Below, in pieces: positions 48,158-62,593 of a DNA stretch of 64,000 nt. The stretch is taken from assembly GCF_012911005.2 (NCBI RefSeq), contig NZ_WTVS01000001.1:62001-126000 (forward strand). Reading direction: 5' to 3'. A program made the translations under genes and the position numbers. The notes beneath the pieces are model-generated. The model was not told where the DNA came from and made no database searches. It saw only the letters and a list, made by a program, of their open reading frames with translations. This DNA comes from Aromatoleum toluolicum. GTDB taxonomy: Bacteria > Pseudomonadota > Gammaproteobacteria > Burkholderiales > Rhodocyclaceae. Position 1 is the stretch's first letter. Each line of letters begins with the position of its first letter.

Positions 48158-49576
48158 ATGTCGCAGACAACAGAACGCATCGAACACGACCTTCTCGGAG
48201 ATCGCTCCCTGCCCGCCGACTCCTATTACGGCGTCCATACGCTGCGCGCGGTCGAGAATTTCCCGATCACCGGCACGCCGATCTCGATCTACCCGGAACT
48301 CGTCCGTGCGCTCGCGGCGATCAAGCAGGCCGCCGCGCAGACCAACAGCGAACTCGGGCTGCTCGATCGCGAGCGCGCCGACGTGATCATCCGGGCCTGC
48401 GAGGAAATCCGCGCCGGTGCGCTGCACGAGCACTTCGTCGTCGACGTGATCCAGGGCGGCGCCGGCACCTCGACCAACATGAACGCCAACGAAGTGATCG
48501 CGAACCGCGCGCTGGAGCTGTTGGGCCACCGGAAAGGCGACTATGCGCGCCTGCATCCGAACGAGCATGTCAACATGAGCCAGAGCACGAACGACGTGTA
48601 TCCGACGGCGCTGAAGCTCGCCGGCTACGTGGGCATCTTCGGCCTGATCGAGGCGATGGAAGTGCTGCGCGCGGCGTTTCACGACAAGGCGGTCCAATTC
48701 GCCGACGTGCTGAAGATGGGGCGCACGCAGCTGCAGGACGCGGTGCCGATGACGGTCGGGCAGGAATTTTCGACCTACGTGGTGATGCTCGGCGAGGATA
48801 TCGATCGCCTCAAGGAAGCGGTGCTGCTGATCCGCGAGATCAACCTCGGTGCGACCGCGATCGGCACCGGGATCAATGCCCACCCCGACTATGCCGCGCT
48901 GGTGTGCCGGCACTTGGCCGAGATTACCGGCATTCCCGTGCTCACCGCGCCCAACCTGGTGGAAGCGACGCAGGACTGCGGCAGCTTCGTGCAGTTATCC
49001 GGCGTATTGAAGCGTGTGGCGGTGAAGCTCTCGAAGGTGTGCAACGACCTGCGCCTGCTGTCGTCGGGCCCGCGCGCCGGCTTCGGCGAAATCAACCTGC
49101 CGCCGATGCAGGCGGGCTCGTCGATCATGCCGGGCAAGGTGAATCCGGTGATCCCGGAAGTGGTGAACCAGATCGCGTACGAGGTGATCGGCAACGACGT
49201 CACGATCTCCTTCGCCGCCGAGGCGGGCCAGCTGCAGCTCAACGCCTTCGAGCCGATCATCGCCCACAGCCTGTTCAAGAGCGCCACGCACCTGCGCGCC
49301 GGCTGCCTGACGCTCGCCGAGCGCTGCGTCACGGGCATCACCGTGAACCGCGAGTTCCTGCGCAAGAGCGTCGAGAACTCGATCGGCCTCGTGACCGCGC
49401 TGAATCCCTACATCGGCTACGCCAATGCGACCGAGATCGCCCAGGAGGCGCTCTTCGGCGGCCATAGCGTGTATGCGCTGGTGCTCAACAAGGGCCTGAT
49501 GACGAAGGATCAGCTGGACCAGATCCTCAAGCCCGAGGTGCTGACGCAACCCCGCGCGATGGTCGCACTGCGCTGA
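48158..49576 (+). CDS. aspA: Aspartate ammonia-lyase
   Basis: A 472-residue fumarase/aspartase-superfamily enzyme that deaminates L-aspartate to fumarate and ammonium. The signature GSSIMPGKVNPV lies near residue 321; HPNEHVNMSQSTNDVYPTA, GRTQLQDAVPMT and NLVEATQDCGSF are also conserved. EHDLLGDRSLPADSYYGVHT at the N-terminus separates AspA from fumarase C. GGAGGAAAC precedes the ATG. The next gene is an amino-acid/dicarboxylate symporter, so uptake and breakdown are linked; fumarate could also serve anaerobic metabolism. Confidence 0.95.
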   Translation: MSQTTERIEHDLLGDRSLPADSYYGVHTLRAVENFPITGTPISIYPELVRALAAIKQAAAQTNSELGLLDRERADVIIRACEEIRAGALHEHFVVDVIQGGAGTSTNMNANEVIANRALELLGHRKGDYARLHPNEHVNMSQSTNDVYPTALKLAGYVGIFGLIEAMEVLRAAFHDKAVQFADVLKMGRTQLQDAVPMTVGQEFSTYVVMLGEDIDRLKEAVLLIREINLGATAIGTGINAHPDYAALVCRHLAEITGIPVLTAPNLVEATQDCGSFVQLSGVLKRVAVKLSKVCNDLRLLSSGPRAGFGEINLPPMQAGSSIMPGKVNPVIPEVVNQIAYEVIGNDVTISFAAEAGQLQLNAFEPIIAHSLFKSATHLRAGCLTLAERCVTGITVNREFLRKSVENSIGLVTALNPYIGYANATEIAQEALFGGHSVYALVLNKGLMTKDQLDQILKPEVLTQPRAMVALR

Positions 49577-51080: not shown

Positions 51081-52541
51081 ATGCAGGACCAGAACACGCC
51101 GCGGCGCCTGGGCGTCGTGGGCGGCCTCGGAGCGCTCGGGGCCGCGGATGTCTTCTTCAAGCTGGTGAAGGCCTTGCCGGGGCGCAAGGGACAGGAGCAG
51201 CCGGAACTCCTCTTCGAGCAACACCCGTTTCATGAGGACGACATTCCCGGGGAACGGTCGGCGTCGCAGAACGGGCGCAAGCTCTACGTCTTCGACATGA
51301 TCAGGCGGTTCGAAGCGCGCCAGGTCGACGCCGTGGTCCTGCCCTGCTTCCTCAGTCACACCTTCCTGGACGAGCTGGCATCCGAGATTCGCTTGCCGAT
51401 CGTCAGCATCATGGACGCGCTGTACCACCACGTCGTGCAGCGGCATGCCGGCGTGCGACGGCTCGGCGTCCTGACCTCCGACCATGTCCGCGCGAAGGCG
51501 CTGTTCGAGCGCCGCTTTCCGGGCACTGACTGGGAAATTCTCTACCCGCGCGCAGAGGTCCAGCGCGAATGCGTGATGGCGGCGATCTACGCGGCAGACG
51601 GGATCAAGGCGGGCTGCCTGCAGGGCGGTTCGACCGAGCGTCTGGCCGCGGCCTGCCGCGATCTGACGGAGCAAGGAGCGGAACTGATCCTCCCCGGCTT
51701 CGCCGAGATTCCGATCGTCATCGACGCCCTGCTCGATTGCGGCTTCCCCGTTCTCGATACGAACCTGATCTACGCCCGCTATGCCGTGTCCCAGGACGCG
51801 ATGCCGCGAACGCGGCAATTCAAGGTCGGGGTGGTCGGCGGCGTGGGGCCCGCGGCAACCGTCGATTTCGTCGACAAGATCGTGCGCAACACCGCTGCGA
51901 GACGGGATCAGGAACACGTGAAGCTGGTGGTCGAGCAGAATCCCCAGATCCCCGACCGCACCGAACATCTGCTGGGCGACGGCCCGGATCCGACCGTTGC
52001 GCTGTATTCGACCTGCAAGAAGCTGGAGGCGGCCGACGCGGACATCATCGCGATTCCGTGCAACACGGCGCATGCCTTCGTCGAACGCATCCAGCCCTAC
52101 CTGTCCATTCCGGTGGTGAACATGTTGAGCGAGACGGTCGCGCATATCCGCAAGCACTTCGCGGATCGCAAGGTAGTCGGCCTGCTGGCGACCAGCGGGA
52201 CGGTCCGGAGCGGCGTCTACCACGACGTGGTGATGCGGGCGGGCCTGCAGCTGCTGGTCCCGGACGACGAGCACCAGGATCTGGTCATGGGTGCGATCTA
52301 CGGGCCGGCGGGCGTCAAGGCCGGTTTTACGGAAGGCGCGTGCGTCCAGGACCTGCTGCGCGCGCTCACGTCGCTCGCCCGACGGGGCGCGGAAGTGATC
52401 GTGCTCGGCTGTACGGAACTTCCCCTGCTGCTGCACGAGGACGAAGCATTCGCTGTCGCGGGCAAGACGGTCGTCGTGCTCGACCCGACCGAAATTCTCG
52501 CGCGGAAATGTGTGAGCCTGAGCCGCCAGTCCGATGCGTGA
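51081..52541 (+). CDS. Double-domain Asp/Glu racemase-family protein with a degenerate first domain
   Basis: A 486-residue protein containing two fused aspartate/glutamate racemase-like domains (about 8-235 and 247-470), both opening with VVGG-G. In racemases two cysteines act as acid and base. The second half has both: Cys327 (IPCNTAHAF) and Cys444 (LGCTELP). The first half has Cys89 (VLPCFLSHTF) but Phe207 where the second should be (PGFAEIP). So probably only the C-terminal half is catalytic, with the N-terminal half replacing the second subunit of the usual homodimer. GGGAG precedes ATG 51081. It belongs to the aspartate cassette. Confidence 0.85.
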   Translation: MQDQNTPRRLGVVGGLGALGAADVFFKLVKALPGRKGQEQPELLFEQHPFHEDDIPGERSASQNGRKLYVFDMIRRFEARQVDAVVLPCFLSHTFLDELASEIRLPIVSIMDALYHHVVQRHAGVRRLGVLTSDHVRAKALFERRFPGTDWEILYPRAEVQRECVMAAIYAADGIKAGCLQGGSTERLAAACRDLTEQGAELILPGFAEIPIVIDALLDCGFPVLDTNLIYARYAVSQDAMPRTRQFKVGVVGGVGPAATVDFVDKIVRNTAARRDQEHVKLVVEQNPQIPDRTEHLLGDGPDPTVALYSTCKKLEAADADIIAIPCNTAHAFVERIQPYLSIPVVNMLSETVAHIRKHFADRKVVGLLATSGTVRSGVYHDVVMRAGLQLLVPDDEHQDLVMGAIYGPAGVKAGFTEGACVQDLLRALTSLARRGAEVIVLGCTELPLLLHEDEAFAVAGKTVVVLDPTEILARKCVSLSRQSDA

Positions 52542-53324: not shown

Positions 53325-53398
53325 ACTGTCTCCTCCACCCTCTCCTCCTTTGGTGTGGATTCAAGCCCGAGCCCTCTCCAGAGCTCGGGCTTTTTTTT
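53325..53398 (+). ncRNA. Tandem anti-Shine-Dalgarno small RNA, copy E
   Basis: The most divergent copy: the pyrimidine core carries two extra bases (CACCCTCTCCTCCTTTGGTG) and the terminator GCCCGAGC (53365-53372) / GCTCGGGC (53383-53390) extends by AA/TT and ends in eight T residues. It lies 17 bases from the convergent end of the U32 gene. Confidence 0.8.
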
Positions 53399-53414: not shown

Positions 53415-54461
53415 TCAGACGGCCGTGAGGAGCTTACCTTCGGCATCGCCGGTCGCCTGCCGGCTCCTCACCTCGGGGTAGTAGCACATGTAGCCGCTGG
53501 CGCAGTGGCTCGGTGAGTCGCGCAGGCCGACGGCGAACTCGCGCACGGCGTGTTCCGCCTCGCCCGCCGCGATGCGCTCCAGCACGCGGGCGACGAGTTC
53601 TACGCTCTTGATTTTGCGTTCGCTCGCGCCCTCGCGACCGGCGATCTTCACCGAATGCACGCCCGCCGCATGCATCGCCGGCATCGCGCAGAGGCCGCAG
53701 GGGCCCCACGGAAACCAATTCGGCGCGACCGAGAAGCCGTTGCCGAAGCGGTACCAGAGCCAGCGCTTGTAATCGAGATCGTTCTGCTCCAGGCGGCGCA
53801 GCGCACGCGCCTGCGGCTTGTCGCCACCGGTCGCTTGATACTCGAACTGATAGTTGTCGATGCAGATCGGGCCGCCCTTGTTCATCGGCAGATGGACGGT
53901 GTGGCAGGCGCCTTCCTCGAACACGCAGCCGTCGTTGAGGACGAAGGCTTCGACGTCGAGCTCGGGCAGCGCCTGCGTGATCGCGGCGATCTCGGCGACC
54001 GTGACGTCGCGCGGCAGGATGATGCGTTTGGCGCCGAGCGCAGCGAAGAAGCGTGCGGACTCGACGTTGCGACAGGTGGCGACGGAGCTGACGTGGATGT
54101 CGAGATCCGGCACGTTGGCGGCGAGCGAGGCGATCAGCGAGATGTCCGCGACGATGGCGGCCTTGCCGCCGATGCCGCGGAAGCGCGCGCCGATTTCGGT
54201 GAGGGCGTCGAGATGCTGTTCGCCGTATTGCTGGGCGTTGAGGACGAGGAAGACTTCGGCGTCGAGCGCGGTGGCCTTATCGACGACGCGTTCGAGGTCC
54301 GCATAGCCGTTGAGGTTGCCGAAGACGCGGCGATTGACGCCGGAGGTGTTGAAACGCTGGATCCAGTCGGGCGGCACGACGCCGCAGTAGAGCTCGCGCG
54401 CACCGGCGCGCACGAGCGGCTCGACTTCGGCGGGGGCGCTGATGGGGGCGGTGATTCTCAT
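53415..54461 (-). CDS. U32-family protein, UbiU-like, last gene of the QHNDH operon
   Basis: A 348-residue U32 protein without signal peptide. Its cysteines match UbiU: Cys179 and Cys186 (DGCVFEEGACH, spacing C-x6-C as UbiU C169/C176), Cys200 (GGPICIDNYQ) and Cys255 or Cys258 (WGPCGLCAM), which in UbiU hold a [4Fe-4S] cluster. ARELYCGV, HVSSVATCRN, AKRIILPRDV and VHSVKIAGREGASERK are also U32-like. UbiU with UbiV hydroxylates ubiquinone precursors without O2. The gene starts one base after the UbiV-like gene (TGACATG), so both are coupled. I infer a role in cofactor maturation of the amine dehydrogenase, not quinone synthesis or proteolysis. Confidence 0.8.
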   Translation of the reverse strand: MRITAPISAPAEVEPLVRAGARELYCGVVPPDWIQRFNTSGVNRRVFGNLNGYADLERVVDKATALDAEVFLVLNAQQYGEQHLDALTEIGARFRGIGGKAAIVADISLIASLAANVPDLDIHVSSVATCRNVESARFFAALGAKRIILPRDVTVAEIAAITQALPELDVEAFVLNDGCVFEEGACHTVHLPMNKGGPICIDNYQFEYQATGGDKPQARALRRLEQNDLDYKRWLWYRFGNGFSVAPNWFPWGPCGLCAMPAMHAAGVHSVKIAGREGASERKIKSVELVARVLERIAAGEAEHAVREFAVGLRDSPSHCASGYMCYYPEVRSRQATGDAEGKLLTAV

Positions 54462-54462
54462 G

Positions 54463-55365
54463 TCAGGCTCCCGACAGGACGATGCGGCTGACCCAGCCGT
54501 TGTTCACGGCCTCGGCAACCGCCGTGGCCATGCCTTGCGCGTGGCGGTAGTACATGGTGTTGCCGCGCTGCGAGGTGTGCAGTTCGTGGGTGCCGGGGCG
54601 CGCGCCGACTTCGTTGAAGCCGAGGCATTCGCGGCGGCACTGGTGGCCGGGCGAGAACTTCTCCGGCGTGTCGAGCGACAGCGAGCCGAGCTTGCAGATG
54701 CGGCCCTTGGCGATGTAGCCGTAGGGCGCGCGCACGCCGACGGGAAAGTCGATGCCGGCGTACATGTCGGCGGCGCCAAAGGGCGGGAAGTCGAGTTCCA
54801 GGCGGCCGATGCCCAGCCCGTCGAGGATGTCGCGGAAGGGGCCCGCGCGCAGGCCGTTGGGGTACATGCGCGCCCAGGTTGCGGAAGGCAGGCGCGGGTC
54901 CTTCAGCATCTTGCCGAGGAGGCGTCCGGCGACCGGGCGCAGCGCCGGGAATTCGCGCTGCACGAGGCGCGCCACACCCCAGTCGTTGATGGTGACTTCG
55001 CAGCCCGCCGGCAGGCGCGCGAGCGCGGCGCGCAGCGGGTCGAACAGGCCGTCGCAGGCGATCGGCGTGACGAGGCCGAAGGTGAGGCCCCAGCGCTCGC
55101 ACAGCGCCACGGCGCGATCGATCGATTCGACGCTCGGGAGCAGGTGTTCGCAGAACTCGCTGCCGAGGAAGAAGTGCGTGGGCTCGGCATCGTCGGGCAG
55201 CGTGACGCAGTCGCGGGCTTCACCGAGCTGGTCGAGGTAGTCATCGCGCGTGACGCGCTCATGCCGCGCGAAGGCGGCCAGTTCGCGTTCGTCGACGAGG
55301 GCAAAGCCCAGTTCGATCGGTCGGGTCGCGCTGTCGGGGGTGGAGGTGTGCTCTGTGCTTGTCAT
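54463..55365 (-). CDS. U32-family protein, UbiV-like, QHNDH operon
   Basis: A 300-residue U32-related protein. Four cysteines fall in the UbiV pattern: Cys72 (FFLGSEFCEHLL; UbiV has YLGEAVCSKR), Cys224 (GRICKLGSLS), and Cys243/Cys247 (HQCRREC, the C-x3-C of UbiV C193/C197). CEVTINDWGVARLVQREFP corresponds to the UbiV segment about the neighbouring strand. It should bind [4Fe-4S] and pair with the UbiU-like protein encoded next. ATG 55365 overlaps the qhpE stop by ATGA and follows GGGAG, so it is translationally tied to the QHNDH maturation genes. No FAD-dependent QhpG is encoded in the visible part of the operon. Confidence 0.78.
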   Translation of the reverse strand: MTSTEHTSTPDSATRPIELGFALVDERELAAFARHERVTRDDYLDQLGEARDCVTLPDDAEPTHFFLGSEFCEHLLPSVESIDRAVALCERWGLTFGLVTPIACDGLFDPLRAALARLPAGCEVTINDWGVARLVQREFPALRPVAGRLLGKMLKDPRLPSATWARMYPNGLRAGPFRDILDGLGIGRLELDFPPFGAADMYAGIDFPVGVRAPYGYIAKGRICKLGSLSLDTPEKFSPGHQCRRECLGFNEVGARPGTHELHTSQRGNTMYYRHAQGMATAVAEAVNNGWVSRIVLSGA

Positions 55366-56057
55366 GAATCGATCTCCCCGATTCTCTTGTGTTCCCGCCC
55401 CTGCCAGCTGGCGCGGGCGGCGAGGTGAGCTGCGAGCCCTTGCGGGTCCGCCGCGGGGTATTGCATGAAATGTCGGGCGACGATGCCGGTGAAGCGCGCC
55501 GTCGCCATGCTCGCACCGCCGGCCGTCTTCCCCGGTCCGGCAGGGGAACAGCCCCAGTCCGCAGCGCCGGACGTCTCGCCATTGAGCAGCGACCACTGTC
55601 CGGGCGCGCAGCGCGCGTCGCCGCTGACGGCGAGCACGCCGGGATAGGCCGCGGGGAAGACCGGCGTGCCGCGCGCGGGGGCCGCCGCAACGAGCACGAC
55701 GCCTTGCGCGAGCGCGCGAGTGCAGGCCCGGCGCAGCACCGTGCGGTCTTCGAGCAGGCCGAGGCTGAGGTTGATGATGCGTGCGCCCTCGTCCGCACAC
55801 CATTCGATCGCCGCGGCGACCATGGCCGGCGACGGCGCATGCCGGTGCGACGCGATGCGTGCGTCGATGAGACGGGCCGCCGGTGCGGCCTCGAGCACCA
55901 ACGCAGCCACCGCTTCACCGTGCGGCAGCGGGCGACCGCCGGCGGGCTCGCGACCGACGCTTCCGTCGGCGGCGGGGATGAAGTGCGCCGCCCGATGCAA
56001 TGCGTGCGGGGGTACGCCGGTGAAGCCGCCGTCGATGATGCCGACCGTCACGCTCAT
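55362..56057 (-). CDS. qhpE: Subtilisin-like maturation protease QhpE
   Basis: A 231-residue S8 protease without a signal peptide or prodomain. The catalytic triad is Asp in VGIIDGGF (near 9), His in LPHGEAVAALV (near 47) and Ser in GGASMATARFTG (near 185). In Paracoccus, QhpE removes the 28-residue leader from the cross-linked gamma subunit in the cytoplasm. It overlaps qhpF upstream and the UbiV-like gene downstream, each by ATGA. Confidence 0.88.
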   Translation of the reverse strand: MSVTVGIIDGGFTGVPPHALHRAAHFIPAADGSVGREPAGGRPLPHGEAVAALVLEAAPAARLIDARIASHRHAPSPAMVAAAIEWCADEGARIINLSLGLLEDRTVLRRACTRALAQGVVLVAAAPARGTPVFPAAYPGVLAVSGDARCAPGQWSLLNGETSGAADWGCSPAGPGKTAGGASMATARFTGIVARHFMQYPAADPQGLAAHLAARASWQGREHKRIGEIDS

Positions 56058-57772
56058 ACGACCCTCAACAGCGGTGCGGCGGGCCGGGCCGCCTCGGGCT
56101 CGACGAGGCGGCCGTCGCGCAGCTCGACGACGCGATCGACCGCGCCGACGGATGCGAGGTTGTGGGTGATGACGATGCGGGTGCGCCCGGCGAAGACGCG
56201 ATCGACCGCGCCCATGATCGCCTGCGCGACCGGCAGGTCCAGGCCGGAGGTCGTCTCGTCGAGGATCAGCACCGCCGGGTCCTGCAGGATCGCGCGCGCG
56301 AGCGCGAGGCGCAGGCGCTCGCCGCGCGACAGGGCTGCCGCCATCGCGCCCACCGGCCGGTCGAGGCCGCGGGCGTGGGCGAGTTTCGTGAGGCCGGCGA
56401 GGTCCAGCGCACGCAGCAGCGCGGACTCCTCGGCGTCGGGGGCGACGAAGCGCAGGTTGTCGCGCACCGTCCCGGGCATCAGCACCGGCTCCTGGTCGAC
56501 GACGACGACCTGGCGACGCAGCTCGACGAGGTCGAGGAGGTCAAGGCGCACGCCGTCGAGCAGCAGGCGCCCCGCCTGCGGGTCGTAGTGGCGTTGCAGC
56601 AGGTCGATCAGCGTCGATTTTCCGGCGCCGGACGCACCGACGAGGGCGAGCTTGGTGCCGGCCGGCACGTCGAGCGTCGCGCCGGCGAGCACTGCCTCGG
56701 CTGCATAGCCGAAGCGCACGGCATCGAGCCGCAGCGCGCCCCGCACCGGCTGCGCGAGCGGGACCGGCCGGGCCGGCGAAGCCACGGTCGGCCGCTCGGC
56801 GGCGAGCTCATGGATGCGCTGCAGGCTGACCTTCGCGCGCTGCCAGCCCATGAACACGCCTGCGAGCGTCTGCAGCGGACCGGCAGCACGAGTCGTGTAG
56901 GCGATGAAGGCGACGACGACGCCGACGGACAGCTCTCCGCCTGCCGCCAGCGATCCGCCGACCGCGAACACCAGCAGCACGCCGAGGCCCGACAGGACGC
57001 GCTGCAGGCCGCCGGCGCCGAGCGAGGCGAGCTGCGAGCGGCGCAGCGCGGCGAAATAGTCGCCGTGATGCGCCCGCAGTCCCGCTTCCTGGCGCCGCGC
57101 GGCGTTCGAGGCCTGGATGAACTTCATCGCGCGCAGCGACTCGACGAAGAAGCTCGACATCGCGGCGCTTTCCTTGCGCAGCGCCTGCGAGCCCTTTTCG
57201 AGCCACGGACGCGAGACGATCAGCGCCGCCACCTGCAAGGGCACGAGCGCGAACACGAGCGCGGTGAGCATCGGGCTCAGGGAGAGCATCAAGACCAGCG
57301 CGACGATCAGCGAGAACACGCCGTTGAGCACCGCCATCGGCGCGTCGAGCGCGAAGCGCTGCACCTCGGCGACATCGCCGTCGAGCCGCGACAGGATCTC
57401 CCCGCCGCGTGTGCGGGCGTAGTACGTCGGCGCAAGCGTCTGCAGGTGACGCCAGACCTGCTCGCGCAGTCCGAAGAGGACGTGCGCGGAGAGTTTCAGA
57501 TAGGTGAGGCGCGACAGCGTCTCGACGAGCACGCCTCCGACCATCAGGACGAGGAAGGCCGCGCACAGCCACAGCACGAGCTCGACCTTGCCGCCGACGA
57601 TGCCCTCGTCCACGAGGCGTTGCGTGAGATAGGGCGGCAGCAGTGCGGCCGCCGAGCCGAGGCAGGACAGGAGGACGACGGTGGCGACCGATCCGGCGCG
57701 TTCCCGGACCAGGGGCAGCGCCCACGATAGCGCCTGCGCGGGCCTCGGGCGGCTTCCGTCGAAACGGATCAT
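56054..57772 (-). CDS. qhpF: ABC transporter QhpF (fused permease-ATPase)
   Basis: A 572-residue half transporter: six-helix exporter domain (GSVATVVLLSCLGSAAALLP, LVLWLCAAFLVLMVGGVLVE) followed by an ATPase with Walker A GASGAGKST, signature LSRGERLRLALARAI (LSRGE in place of LSGGQ) and Walker B AVLILDETTSGLD. In Paracoccus the homologue exports the processed gamma subunit to the periplasm. ATG 57772 (MIRFDG) is chosen. The Gly-Arg exchange in the signature motif is a variant seen in some exporters. Confidence 0.87.
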   Translation of the reverse strand: MIRFDGSRPRPAQALSWALPLVRERAGSVATVVLLSCLGSAAALLPPYLTQRLVDEGIVGGKVELVLWLCAAFLVLMVGGVLVETLSRLTYLKLSAHVLFGLREQVWRHLQTLAPTYYARTRGGEILSRLDGDVAEVQRFALDAPMAVLNGVFSLIVALVLMLSLSPMLTALVFALVPLQVAALIVSRPWLEKGSQALRKESAAMSSFFVESLRAMKFIQASNAARRQEAGLRAHHGDYFAALRRSQLASLGAGGLQRVLSGLGVLLVFAVGGSLAAGGELSVGVVVAFIAYTTRAAGPLQTLAGVFMGWQRAKVSLQRIHELAAERPTVASPARPVPLAQPVRGALRLDAVRFGYAAEAVLAGATLDVPAGTKLALVGASGAGKSTLIDLLQRHYDPQAGRLLLDGVRLDLLDLVELRRQVVVVDQEPVLMPGTVRDNLRFVAPDAEESALLRALDLAGLTKLAHARGLDRPVGAMAAALSRGERLRLALARAILQDPAVLILDETTSGLDLPVAQAIMGAVDRVFAGRTRIVITHNLASVGAVDRVVELRDGRLVEPEAARPAAPLLRVV

Positions 57773-58050: not shown

Positions 58051-59148
58051 TCAGCGCTTCACGACCCGCATCCAGCCGATCGACTGGTCCGCCCCGCCCG
58101 GCATCTGGATTTCGCCCTTCTTCTCGAAGCTATCCGCGTCGTAGATCGCGATCTTGTCGAGTGCGCCACCGACGTAGATCTCCTTGCCATCGCCGGAGAT
58201 ATTGATGGCGTAGAAGGTCTGCTCCAGATCCTTGCGTTTCAGGAGCTTGCCGGTATCGGTGTCGACCTTGGTGAGCTGGTTCATCACGAGGAAGGCCTCG
58301 TTGCGGGCTACCGGGCTCACGACCGAGGAGAACATCGCGGTCGTCGCGTTCTCGAACTCCTTGACCTTCAACGTCTCGGAGTCGAGGTCGAACACCGCGA
58401 TGCCGGCCTTGAAGGCCTCCGGCGAATCCGGCGGGACGTCGGTCTTCGCGACGAAGTACGGCGTCGACAGCGCGCGCGCCTGCTCGAAGGTGCCCCACAT
58501 CGCGAGCACGTCCGGCTCGCCGATGCCGGGGCGGTTCCAGTGGCGCACCGGGAAGGTCTGCTCGAGTTTGCCGGTCTTGGTGTTGAAGAGGTACATGTCC
58601 CAGCCGAGCGCGATGAGGTGATCGGGCTTGCCGGTCGCGGCCATCAGGCTGATGCGGCGCGGCGCCGGGAAGGTGCGGCGCGGCTTGGCGGTCATGCCAT
58701 CGGCAGTGTCGAACACCGCGATGTAGGTGTCCTCGACCTTGTACTCGGAGCGCCCCAACTGCACCGGCGCCTGATGCACGTAGAGTTCCTTGCCGTCCTC
58801 GCTCACCGCGACCGCGAAGAAGCCCTTCACGCGCCGCTGCGGTGTCGAGAAATCGGCGCGGAACACCGGCTTGCCGCTGTCGAGGTCGACGCCGACGACG
58901 CTCTCCATGCGGTTCGTCAGCACGTAGGCGGTCTTGGCGTCCTTCGGCACCGCGATCGCGCCGGGGATGCCGTCGCCGGGCAGGTTGATCGTGCGCACGA
59001 TCGCGCGCTTCGCCGGGTCGACGATATGCAGGTTGTTGGGCCGCGTGACGGTCAGCAGGTATTCCGCCGCGAGCGCGGGCAGCGAGACGGCGGCGCAGCA
59101 CAGGGCAACAATAACCATCGGCGCCTTCTTGATGGACAGCATCCTCAT
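58051..59148 (-). CDS. qhpB: Quinohemoprotein amine dehydrogenase beta subunit
   Basis: A 365-residue periplasmic beta-propeller. A signal peptide (APMVIVALCCAAVSLPALAA) precedes YVTN-like repeats (LLTVTRPNNLHIVDPAKRAI, VSEDGKELYVH, VFDLDSETLKVKEF, ISGDGKEIYVGGALDK). It matches QhpB, the seven-bladed subunit that scaffolds the alpha and gamma subunits. The start ATG 59148 lies three bases after the qhpC stop. Confidence 0.92.
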   Translation of the reverse strand: MRMLSIKKAPMVIVALCCAAVSLPALAAEYLLTVTRPNNLHIVDPAKRAIVRTINLPGDGIPGAIAVPKDAKTAYVLTNRMESVVGVDLDSGKPVFRADFSTPQRRVKGFFAVAVSEDGKELYVHQAPVQLGRSEYKVEDTYIAVFDTADGMTAKPRRTFPAPRRISLMAATGKPDHLIALGWDMYLFNTKTGKLEQTFPVRHWNRPGIGEPDVLAMWGTFEQARALSTPYFVAKTDVPPDSPEAFKAGIAVFDLDSETLKVKEFENATTAMFSSVVSPVARNEAFLVMNQLTKVDTDTGKLLKRKDLEQTFYAINISGDGKEIYVGGALDKIAIYDADSFEKKGEIQMPGGADQSIGWMRVVKR

Positions 59149-59151
59149 CGC

Positions 59152-59472
59152 TCAGTCTCCCGGGAACAGCGTCTGCAGTTCGCGCCAGTCGCGCAGCGCC
59201 GAGTTCTTGCCGTCGGTCCAGTCGCGCGCGGTGTTGAGGCTGTCGGCGAGTTGCGCCGGCCACCAGCACGGGTCGGTGCAGCCATAGAGGTCGGCCTCCA
59301 TCGGCTGACACAGGCTCGCCAGCCCGCCGAAGGCATCGACTTCCCAGCCGGGGTCGAAGGTCGTCGTGCAGCCGACGACGCTGCTCATCAGCTGCACTTC
59401 CTCACGGTGGCCGTCGTGCACCGCCTGTTCGATGAGATGCGCCTTGTGGTTCAGGGCTCGCAGTCGTTTCAT
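59152..59472 (-). CDS. qhpC: Quinohemoprotein amine dehydrogenase gamma subunit (CTQ-bearing)
   Basis: A 106-residue precursor: 28-residue leader ([10 protein letters not shown] to EEVQL) and a 78-residue mature part starting MSSVVGC. Numbered from that Met, all cross-linking residues known from Paracoccus are in place: Cys7-Glu16, Cys27-Asp33, Cys41-Asp49 thioethers and Cys37-Trp43, which form cysteine tryptophylquinone. Trp43 must be doubly oxygenated, which in Paracoccus needs QhpG. There is no Sec signal; export follows processing. ATG 59472 overlaps qhpD's stop by ATGA. Confidence 0.96.
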
Positions 59473-60899
59473 TGCAGGGCACTCCTTTGTTCGATCGCGG
59501 CGTTGAAGAACGCCGGGTTGGCGAGCCCGATCTCGCCGAAGGCTTCGAGGCCGAAGGCCGTCCATTCGCGGATCTGGTCGCAGTATTCGAAAGTCGGCTG
59601 AAAGGGGTCGCCGCTCCGCGAATAGGATTCGTGGTAGCAGCCGCCGGCGCACAGGCTGCGGGCGGGACAGACCTGGCAGGCACTGTTCGGTGCCTGTGCG
59701 CGCGTCATGAATTGCGACAGCGACTCGCGCGCGATGCCGTTCTCGACATCGCCGAAGGTCTCGAGCTCCGAGCCGGTGAAGCGATGGCACAGCGAGATCT
59801 TGCCGCTGGTGCCGACCGCGAGCAGGCCGACGCCGGCGCCGCAAGGCAGGACCTTGCGCGTGCCCATCCACAGGTCGGTCATCAGCTGCTGCATGTTGCC
59901 GAAGCCGTGGCGCTTGCCGCGCTTGGCCTCGGACACGTACTCGCGGCCGAGCGCCTTGAAGGCTTCGAAGACGGTGTCGAGCTCTTCCCTGGTCAGGCCC
60001 ACCGGTGAATCCGGGCCCGCCGTCGCGGGCGCGAAGCCGACCTCGAAGAAGCCCAGCTCGTCGTGCAGATGCTTGTAGATGCCGGCGACGTCGAGGTTGC
60101 CGCTTGCCAGCGTGACGCGCGCGCCGACCGGCTTGGACTTGTAGCGCTCGAGCAGCCGCTTCACGCGCATCGCGACCGTCTTGTAGGTGCCGCCGCCTGC
60201 GATCGTGCGGCGATGGCGGTCGTGCTGCGCCTGGTCGCCGTCGATGCTGATGGTGATGCCGAAGCGGTGCGCGTCGAGGAAGTCGATGACCTCGTCGGTC
60301 AGCAGCGTCGCGTTGGTCGTCAGCGAGAACTCGACCTCCTTGCCGGCCGCAGTGGCCTTCTCCTCGGCGTATTCGACGAGGTCGCGGATGACCGCGATGC
60401 GCGTCAGCGGCTCGCCGCCGAAGAACACGATGCCGACGCGCTCGTTCTCGCTCGCCTCTTCCATCAAGAGGTCGATCGAGCGCGTGCCGGTCTGGTAGTC
60501 CATCACCGAGGAGTTCTTTGGCGAAGTCAGGTCCTCGCGGTAGCAGTAGCTGCAGCCGAGGTTGCAGCCGGTGGTGAGCGTCAGCACCAGCGTCTTGAGC
60601 GGCGAGCGTTCGACGATGCGCGCCGGAATCTCGTAGTGCTTGGGCTGCGGCGCGACGATCCCGAGGTCGACGAAGTCGCTCAGGCTGTCGCACAGTTCGG
60701 CCGGGGTGTAGCGCCCGTCGAAGCGCGACTGGATGTCGTCGGCGCTGACCGCGGCGGTCGATTCGAACAGACCGAGCAGATCGGACGCTGCCGGGTCCAG
60801 CTCGAAGATCGAAGTCGTCGGCACGTGCAGCAGCACCTGCCGGTCGCCCTTGCGGATCGCGCGGTAATTGTGGGGTTGTACCTGCAATGTTGTAGTCAT
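59469..60899 (-). CDS. qhpD: Radical SAM maturase QhpD
   Basis: A 476-residue SPASM-type radical SAM enzyme that makes the three Cys-to-Asp/Glu thioether bonds in QhpC. The SAM cluster motif is [15 protein letters not shown] (C-x3-C-x2-C); the SPASM region has [19 protein letters not shown] near residue 400-420 and the intervening CHRF. It precedes qhpC with an overlapping stop/start, as in other qhp operons (A-D-C-B). Confidence 0.95.
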
Positions 60900-60918: not shown

Positions 60919-62526
60919 TCAGCGCAGCGGCGTCGGGTTCCAGCGCTGCACGGTGACGACGAGCTGCCCTTTCGCGTTCAGCGAGCGCTCGCCGTCTGCG
61001 ACGGTCGCGACGACCGACAGGTTGCCGACGTTGTTGAGGCCGCGGCGGTTGGGGTTCGGACCGGCGAAGGACGGCAGGAACTGTCCGTGCGGCTCCATGT
61101 GGCCGGCGAACTTGAGGTCCTCGTCGTGCTTGGCACGCTCATCGAAAGGCTCGGTCGACCACTTCGCCGGCACGCTGCCCAGGCGCACGTCATCGTCGGT
61201 GCCGGGCTTGCCGTCCGCCCCGTCGAGGAAGGCCACGGCGTCGAACTGCGCGGTCACCGGCGGATTCGTGCCGCCGCCGACGCGCGCGATGCCGAACGCC
61301 GGCTCGACGCGCAGCGAGTCGATCTGGCGATACACGGCGACGCTCTTGTCGGACGCTCGCCCACCCACCGCGACCTTGCGCACGCCGGGCGCCGCGTCGG
61401 CCGCGACCTTCACGCGCACTTTCAGCTGCTCGGCCGACTTGCCCAGCCACTCGACGACTTCGACCCCGGACCCGAGATCGAGCTTCGCATCGAGGCCGGC
61501 ACCCGCGACCGTCACCGTCGCCGTCTCGCCCGCCCGCAGCATCTGCGGGCTCACGGACACCAGCGCGTTCTTCGCCGCCTTGTCGGCGCGCACCGCCTCG
61601 AACGTGGCGCCGATCTCGTCGGCTTTGCGCAGGAACCAGCGCCCGCTCATGCGTGCGCCATCCTCGCTCAGCGCAAAGATCGACTGCGTCTGCTCGTTGC
61701 CGAGCTGCGCCGTGCCGCGCCATTCGTAGCCGGTATAGACGAGCGATTCGCCCTTGCCGCGCACGGTGTTGCCCGGCCCGAAGTGCAGCTCGTAGCCGAC
61801 CTCGTAGCGGTCACTGCCCTTCGCGGTCACGGTCATCGTGCCGGTATAGGCGCCCCAGCCCGGCCGCTCGCCGGCGACGATCCAGCGCCCGGCGGCCGGC
61901 CGGTGCTTCGCGCGGCTCCAGTCGCGCCATGCGTCGGTATTCTTCGGGTACATCTCCGCGAGCCGGCCGGGCATCTTGTCGCGCGCGATCTCCCACCAGT
62001 TGCGGTCGCGGCCCAGCGCCGAGTACTCCGCGCTGGGGAACTGGCCGAGGTGCGTGTGCATCAGCTTGCGCCATTCGTCCTCATCGCGCCGCTGCAGCGC
62101 GACGCGGCCATAGCTGTGGCAGCGCCCGCACATCTGCGCCATTTCCTCGTCGGGCGGCGCATCCTGCATGTTCGGCCGCCGCTCGGTCAGAAAGCGGAAC
62201 GCTGCGGCCTCGGACGGCGCGAGCCCCTGCCGGTCGGCGAGGTACTTCACCACCGCACGGCGCTCGTCGGGCGTCAGCTCGACCTTGTGCCAGATGCCCA
62301 TGCGCACGACGGTCATGTCCCAGCCCTCGGGCGTCTTGCGGACCTCGGGGATGCGCGTGAGTTTGCCGTCCTCGAGGTGACAGCTCGCGCACTTCTTGTC
62401 GATCACTTCGCGCCCGGGGTCCTGCGCCGCGACGGCGGGCGTCGTGCCCGCCATCCCCAGCACCAGCGCCACCGCGCCGGCGATGCGCAGATGTCTGCGC
62501 GTGTGTTTTATGGTCTCAGGCTTCAC
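60919..62526 (-). CDS. qhpA: Quinohemoprotein amine dehydrogenase alpha subunit (dihaem)
   Basis: A 535-residue periplasmic subunit. Signal peptide RIAGAVALVLGMAGTTPAVAA; two c-type haem sites KKCASCHLED and QMCGRCHSYG, then beta-barrel domains (GYEWRGTAQLGNEQTQSIF, AGETATVTVAGAGLDAK). The haems pass electrons from CTQ to an external cytochrome or azurin. The start is GTG 62526, six bases after GGAG; another GTG at 62538 abuts that RBS. Together with B and C it oxidises primary amines to aldehydes and ammonium. Confidence 0.94.
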   Translation of the reverse strand: MKPETIKHTRRHLRIAGAVALVLGMAGTTPAVAAQDPGREVIDKKCASCHLEDGKLTRIPEVRKTPEGWDMTVVRMGIWHKVELTPDERRAVVKYLADRQGLAPSEAAAFRFLTERRPNMQDAPPDEEMAQMCGRCHSYGRVALQRRDEDEWRKLMHTHLGQFPSAEYSALGRDRNWWEIARDKMPGRLAEMYPKNTDAWRDWSRAKHRPAAGRWIVAGERPGWGAYTGTMTVTAKGSDRYEVGYELHFGPGNTVRGKGESLVYTGYEWRGTAQLGNEQTQSIFALSEDGARMSGRWFLRKADEIGATFEAVRADKAAKNALVSVSPQMLRAGETATVTVAGAGLDAKLDLGSGVEVVEWLGKSAEQLKVRVKVAADAAPGVRKVAVGGRASDKSVAVYRQIDSLRVEPAFGIARVGGGTNPPVTAQFDAVAFLDGADGKPGTDDDVRLGSVPAKWSTEPFDERAKHDEDLKFAGHMEPHGQFLPSFAGPNPNRRGLNNVGNLSVVATVADGERSLNAKGQLVVTVQRWNPTPLR

Positions 62527-62593
62527 TTCTGTCTCCACTCTCCGGTGAGGAAATCCGCCGCCCGGTCAATCGCGACAAGGCGGCGCCCCGCAC

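Follow-up and report, generated by a model that had tools for sequence, protein, structure and literature searches.

QhV and QhU, two genes that close a qhp operon, form a distinct and widespread unit (QhVU; the names are coined here for the window genes and their homologues), and we think it probable, at somewhat under four in five, that this unit hydroxylates, independently of O2, the QhpC tryptophan from which CTQ is made, in the way that UbiUV acts in ubiquinone synthesis, and so serves as the anaerobic counterpart of QhpG. This function appears the most likely one because QhVU co-occurs with QhpD, because its occurrence complements that of QhpG, because QhU forms a clade of its own, and because a separate ubiUVT set is present; the argument is one of comparative genomics and analogy. 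A sequence-only reading of the same DNA had proposed an O2-independent CTQ hydroxylase in place of QhpG. Comparative support for such an enzyme is strong on these four counts, but outright replacement of QhpG did not hold.

Results

The gene pair and its operon

The window is the whole 64,000-nucleotide stretch of DNA analyzed, C112:62001-126000 from a genome (G000) of 6.16 Mb assembled in 289 contigs, whose genus is also that of A. aromaticum EbN1. The operon runs in the order qhpADCBFE, with QhV and then QhU at its end (Table 1). QhpA, QhpD, QhpC, QhpB, and QhpE all score above their NCBIfam cut-offs, and the QhpF slot is occupied by an ABC transporter; the family searches used a query that starts 6 bases further out than the ATG at 57772 for the QhpF position and a query with one extra codon for QhpC. 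QhpC contains a YGC...PCWW stretch. The stop of QhpE overlaps the start of QhV in an ATGA, and a single base separates QhV from QhU, junctions that the sequence-only reading had given correctly. The codon-position GC of both genes is of the coding type.

Table 1. Genes of the qhp operon, in window coordinates
Gene product	Position	Strand	Features and family scores
QhU	53415..54461	-	U32, UbiU-like, 348 aa, ATG start; PF01136 (Peptidase U32) 141 bits, gathering score 22.4; UbiU NCBIfam NF047963 75.7 bits, cut-off 440
QhV	54463..55365	-	Partner of QhU, distantly UbiV-like, 300 aa, ATG start; no Pfam or NCBIfam family
QhpE, subtilisin-like protease	55362..56057	-	NF049966 245.8 bits, cut-off 165
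ABC transporter, QhpF position	56054..57772	-	ABC_membrane and ABC_tran; ATG at 57772
QhpB, QHNDH beta subunit	58051..59148	-	TIGR03907 505.6 bits
QhpC, QHNDH gamma subunit, proposed substrate	59152..59472	-	NF037958 163.3 bits, cut-off 50
QhpD, radical SAM maturase (QhpC thioether bonds)	59469..60899	-	TIGR03906 748 bits, cut-off 453
QhpA, QHNDH alpha subunit	60919..62538	-	TIGR03908 736.9 bits, cut-off 274.35

Directly downstream of QhU, at window positions 53365-53390, lies an inverted repeat (GCCCGAGC/GCTCGGGC), with eight consecutive T after it on the plus strand; a terminator scan gave no call there. Elsewhere in the window, the plus-strand gene at 51081-52541 encodes a single chain with two Asp/Glu-racemase (CuyB-like) stretches, and an aspartate ammonia-lyase gene (48158-49576) lies upstream of it.

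QhVU is a conserved unit tied to QhpD

When the QhU alignment was used to scan the contigs of 84,980 species, it returned 61 loci, a set that is by construction selected on QhU and that may miss divergent members because the scan relied on two conserved peptide patterns. By record, these loci belong to proteobacteria, including Aromatoleum, Thauera, Herminiimonas, Sterolibacterium, Sedimenticola, Magnetospirillum, Terasakiella, Motiliproteus, two Pseudomonas species, Colwelliaceae, and many MAGs. QhV lies directly upstream of QhU in 60 of the 61 (in L212, QhU begins at the edge of the locus), with gaps of -35 to +208 bases in the 59 extracted pairs. Genes qhpA-D fall inside the fetched flank at 38 of the 61 loci, QhpD itself at 37. 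A whole-genome search for QhpD in 24 QhU genomes, comprising 22 without nearby qhpA-D and two in which the operon is cut (L181 and L193), found it in 21; it was not found in the genomes of L180, L183, and L202, all of them MAG records. L188 is in one genome with L172, and that genome has QhpD. Altogether, 58 of the 61 QhU loci are in genomes with QhpD, and three are misses.

The same tie appears in 150 genomes drawn evenly from the family. QhpD is present in 20 of them (E ≤ 1e-100, all above cut-off), QhU in 14, at 16 places (E ≤ 1e-30), and QhV in the identical 14, also at 16 places (E ≤ 1e-5). All 14 are among the 20 with QhpD, the distribution looked for in a qhp maturation factor, and QhU, QhV, and above-cut-off QhpG are all absent from the 130 genomes without QhpD. 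At the QhU loci, all 36 extracted QhpC sequences carry CWW, whose tryptophan we take to be the equivalent of Trp43; the residue to be modified is therefore present.

QhpG and QhVU complement each other without excluding each other

QhpG exceeds its cut-off of 240 bits in 10 of the 150 family-draw genomes, all 10 among the 20 with QhpD. A further 25 genomes have matches to the QhpG model below cut-off (116-188 bits vs. 240), which we counted as other flavoproteins; G463 is the only QhpD genome among these. The 20 QhpD genomes divide into 10 with QhU only, 6 with QhpG only, 4 with both (G000, G412, G468, and G471), and none with neither. A phylum draw (397 genomes, completeness of at least 90 asked) added 10 QhpD genomes (one of them, G921, scores 343.9 bits for QhpD, short of the cut-off); QhpG is above cut-off in all 10, and QhU is present in none, other U32 matches reaching at most 94 bits. 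In a class draw of 369 genomes, G332 alone besides the genome of the window passes the QhpD cut-off, with QhU at 469 bits and no QhpG found.

Taken together, the 31 QhpD genomes not selected on QhU comprise 11 with QhU only, 16 with QhpG only, 4 with both, and 0 with neither. Under independence, the probability of an empty last class is 1.6e-5 by a hypergeometric calculation that ignores ancestry. For QhpD, the best tree requires QhU-only status to have changed 5 times, and the starred branches require no fewer than 2 changes; a tree-aware independent-pairs test of QhU against QhpG had only 3 pairs (0 the same way, 1 opposite, 2 without difference) and is powerless. Absence of QhpG in these counts rests on candidate ranking, since it was scored among the best 10 first-look candidates per genome in the family draw and among up to 28 in the genomes of the QhU scan. 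In that scan, QhpG is above cut-off in 16 of 49 genomes, the 49 being what remains of 58 after 9 that match genomes already surveyed were left out; among the candidates scored for A. evansii, A. toluvorans, and A. buckelii, no qhpG was found. At the fetched qhp loci, qhpG was sought by ORF clustering with known genes masked.

In the genomes examined, at least one of QhpG and QhVU is present. No QhpD genome of the 31 lacks both. Mutual exclusion, for which the sequence-only reading had proposed a search, is not strict, since 4 of the 31 have both; these are 4 of the 15 QhU genomes in a set not selected on QhU. The genome of the window is itself such a case. As that reading had suggested looking for, a distinct full-length qhpG is present at C237:20844-22136 (L147; 549.5 bits vs. 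the cut-off of 240), on another contig than the qhp operon and with no other qhp gene within 20 kb around it. The close relative G412, a single contig, has the same lone qhpG at C1:1354762-1356054 (L148), some 2 Mb away from the single QhpD of that genome. By eye, both solitary genes share one setting, downstream of RND-efflux-like genes.

The idea that the pair replaces QhpG therefore survives for the operon but not for the genome. Directly after qhpE, the slot is taken by QhpG in L077, L100, and L101 and by QhV in 26 of the 61 QhU loci, and in Sedimenticola hydrogenitrophicus (L199), qhpE, qhpG, qhV, and qhU are consecutive. Because an intact, unlinked qhpG lies elsewhere in the genome, QhVU takes the operon place of QhpG and not its genome place, and for the same reason QhVU cannot be called essential there.

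Two further features of qhp neighborhoods were noted in passing. A protein of about 730 aa resembling CcmF/NrfE lies beside L077, L087, L095, L102, L103, and L104, all loci with qhpG, whereas none turned up in the remaining 22 loci that were fetched; its similarity to haem lyases is weak (one member tested, 53.8 bits, far under cut-off). A very long ORF adjoins the operons of L089, L091, L092, L094, and L096, exceeding 2,100 aa in four and cut in L094; at L092, the one that was read, its end resembles that of a sensor-kinase/response-regulator hybrid.

QhU is a U32 protein of its own clade

QhU scores above the gathering score for Peptidase U32 and far below the UbiU cut-off (Table 1), which the true UbiU of the same genome passes at 564 bits. 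Profile comparison relates QhU to UbiU (hhalign P 99.5-99.9%), with reversed-profile controls that are not clean (reversed UbiU 28%, reversed QhU 4.8%). In a tree with 28 QhU rows, QhU is a single clade (100/100) on a long branch, inside neither the UbiU clade (93/88) nor the TrhP-like clade (99/99), both of which stand apart; long branches meet in this tree, as the tool warned, and the long-branch row C253c was left out. The phylogenetic separation from true UbiU that the sequence-only reading had named as a check is thus found.

Seven cysteines of QhU (C179, C186, C200, C255, C258, C320, and C326) are invariant in 61 of 61 alignment rows, the rows being the window protein and 60 loci, with the truncated L212 left out; C26 and C130 are present in 59 of 61. 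That reading had placed C179, C186, C200, and C255/C258 correctly and had left C320 and C326 unmentioned. In E. coli, the reported ligands are C169, C176, C193, and C232 of UbiU and C39, C180, C193, and C197 of UbiV (PMC6747719). QhU begins its motif as UbiU does, with C179-X6-C186, and then departs from it, with spacings of X13 and X54 against the C-X6-C-X16-C-X38-C of UbiU and its four ligands; C258, C320, and C326 are additional. The AlphaFold2 model of QhU has a pLDDT of 73, with 180-207, 230-250, and 322-348 below 50 and several of the cysteines inside these segments. Its best PDB match is the U32 protein 5d88.

QhV is distantly UbiV-like

Of the two genes described as U32-type, family searches recognize only QhU as such; for QhV, neither Pfam nor NCBIfam gives a match at E 1e-3, and so none to UbiV NF047965 (cut-off 275; the genome's true UbiV scores 388 bits). 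Sixteen QhV members scanned at E ≤ 1 matched neither U32 nor UbiV, and neither QhV nor QhU matched a flavin-monooxygenase family in Pfam or NCBIfam. The four QhV cysteines that had been picked out from the sequence alone, C72, C224, C243, and C247, are correctly placed and occur without exception in all 60 of 60 aligned rows (the window protein and 59 others), other cysteines reaching at most 12 of 60. Their pattern, C72...C224-X18-C243-X3-C247, has the order of the UbiV pattern C...C-X12-C-X3-C and differs from it in the middle spacing.

With deeper alignments, local hhalign comparison of QhV with UbiV gives P of 59% and 64% (pairwise E 9e-5 and 6e-5), against 13% in global mode and no relation with shallow one-family alignments (P 0.7%, E 0.08). 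The local alignment pairs FLGSEFC of QhV with YLGETVC of UbiV and CRRECLG with CEFRCLG; C72 and C243/C247 align with UbiV cysteines, and C224 is offset by a few columns from its counterpart. QhV against QhU gives P 91%, against UbiU 1.6%, and against controls (QhpC, QhpD, QhpE, and five reversed profiles) at most 0.8%. The AlphaFold2 model (pLDDT 79.8) has only weak Foldseek matches. The likeness of QhV to UbiV is thus weak, and what suggests it is the profile comparison, the cysteine order, and the partner QhU.

Canonical ubiquinone and RNA U32 proteins are encoded separately

The genome of the window encodes canonical UbiU (cut-off 440 bits), UbiV, and UbiT (132.9 bits, cut-off 46.9) together on C263, as well as a separate TrhP above cut-off. 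The distinct ubiUV that the sequence-only reading had pointed to as worth seeking therefore exists, and its concern that the pair might be the organism's only ubiUV falls away. Every one of the 14 family-draw genomes with QhU has canonical UbiU, and 121 of the 150 overall have UbiU.

A further, unassigned U32 system was seen at G000:C253:5762-14678 (L083, minus strand), with four U32-type genes of 326, 337, 314, and 330 aa, all far under the UbiU, UbiV, and TrhP cut-offs; the locus also holds a PEP-synthase-like ORF, a HisC/CobD-like aminotransferase extended at its N terminus, and a protein of 312 aa that matches no NCBIfam family.

Discussion

QhpG, a FAD protein, is reported to dihydroxylate the CTQ-precursor tryptophan of cross-linked QhpC when QhpD is present, taking both oxygens from O2 (PMC7876137). 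UbiU and UbiV, each of which binds a 4Fe-4S cluster, are reported to be needed for O2-independent C6-hydroxylation in ubiquinone synthesis (PMC6747719). By analogy, QhV and QhU may form a cytoplasmic heterodimer of UbiV/UbiU-type Fe-S proteins that adds two hydroxyls to the tryptophan of QhpC without O2, presumably after or together with thioether cross-linking by QhpD and before QhpE removes the leader and QhpC is exported. The oxygen donor would probably be organic, for example prephenate, which a review reports to supply the oxygen when ubiquinone is made anaerobically and which it suggests may be common to U32 oxidases (PMC11574389). QhVU and QhpG would then share reaction and substrate, as they share an operon slot and complementary occurrence, while being unrelated proteins, one dependent on FAD and O2 and the other proposed to need no O2. 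Genomes with both, that of the window included, could process the same QhpC whether or not air is present, and others would use QhVU alone. Such an arrangement would resemble the ubiquinone pathway, which is reported to be common to aerobic flavin hydroxylases and the anaerobic UbiUV (PMC6747719). A scan for FNR/ANR boxes upstream of QhV at 59 loci showed no enrichment (score ≥8 at 6 of 59 vs. about 7.7 expected, and ≥9 at 1 of 59 vs. about 0.7).

Several other roles could be imagined for such a pair. The close tie of QhVU to QhpD would also be expected if QhVU acted in QHNDH maturation at a step other than tryptophan hydroxylation, by forming or oxidizing the Cys-Trp bond, by passing electrons to QhpD, or as a scaffold, and C255, C258, C320, and C326 of QhU could hold a second, electron-transfer cluster suited to such a part. 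We consider this improbable, though worth keeping in mind, because QhVU complements QhpG, whose known reaction is dihydroxylation (PMC7876137), and because 11 of the 31 QhpD genomes have QhVU with no QhpG found; another factor should then carry out the dihydroxylation in those genomes.

Roles outside QHNDH are far less probable. Since tRNA and rRNA are substrates of other U32 proteins (PMC11574389), QhVU might hydroxylate a base in RNA, or some other component of the cell, and be a mere passenger in the operon, but we give little credence to this, given that 58 of 61 QhU loci are in QhpD genomes, that occurrence complements QhpG, and that TrhP is encoded separately. TrhP and RlhA, which are themselves O2-independent and prephenate-linked (PMC11574389), share the U32 family with QhU, yet act on RNA, and QhU falls outside the TrhP-like clade. 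Least credible of all is a second ubiUV set for ubiquinone that lies in the qhp operon by chance. Homology of QhU to UbiU and the pairing of the genes are what recommend it. QhVU also resembles UbiUV in the C-X6-C start of the UbiU motif and the C...C...C-X3-C order of UbiV, and O2-free aromatic hydroxylation, for QhVU a proposal, would be common to both. Against it, canonical UbiU, UbiV, and UbiT are all above cut-off in the same genome, and UbiU accompanies QhU throughout the family draw; QhU scores far under the UbiU cut-off in a clade of its own; and QhU is absent at E ≤ 1e-30 from all 130 family-draw genomes without QhpD, although UbiU is so common in that draw. QhVU further differs from UbiUV in that QhV is under detection, the pair is linked to qhp, and its proposed substrate is a peptide. 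We therefore reject both roles and retain hydroxylation of QhpC by QhVU as the preferred reading.

If this hydroxylation is real, O2-free hydroxylation by U32 proteins would extend from ubiquinone and RNA to proteins, anaerobes would have an oxygen-free route to a tryptophylquinone cofactor, and the chemistry would have a soluble peptide substrate readable by mass spectrometry. We lean, with less assurance than for the function itself, toward QhVU being the first U32-type hydroxylase to act on a protein (peptidyl tryptophan, O2-free, organic donor), with QhU, by its seven invariant cysteines, carrying an additional Fe-S site absent from UbiU. In the open-licence literature, we found no link of U32 proteins with QhpG or tryptophylquinone and no paper joining cysteine tryptophylquinone, anaerobic, and peptidase; subscription papers, outside this scope, may contain an earlier mention. 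For annotation, a qhp operon without qhpG should not be called incomplete when qhVU is present.

The proposal bears directly on A. aromaticum EbN1. According to the title of a paper by Schmitt et al., this organism reportedly starts anaerobic aromatic-amine degradation with two QHNDHs, and the abstract is said to state that CTQ maturation requires no O2. Because the reported oxygens of the QhpG reaction come from O2 and the amine use of EbN1 is described as anaerobic, O2-free synthesis of the quinone would call for a different enzyme, and in EbN1 itself QhVU offers a concrete candidate that can be tested. G468 of our family draw is this strain (8 kb match plasmid NC_006823.1 at 99.8%), and QhVU lies beside both of its qhp operons: at L086, QhV-QhU follow qhpE, with no qhpG there, and at L087/L149, qhpG is downstream and QhV-QhU are on the opposite side.
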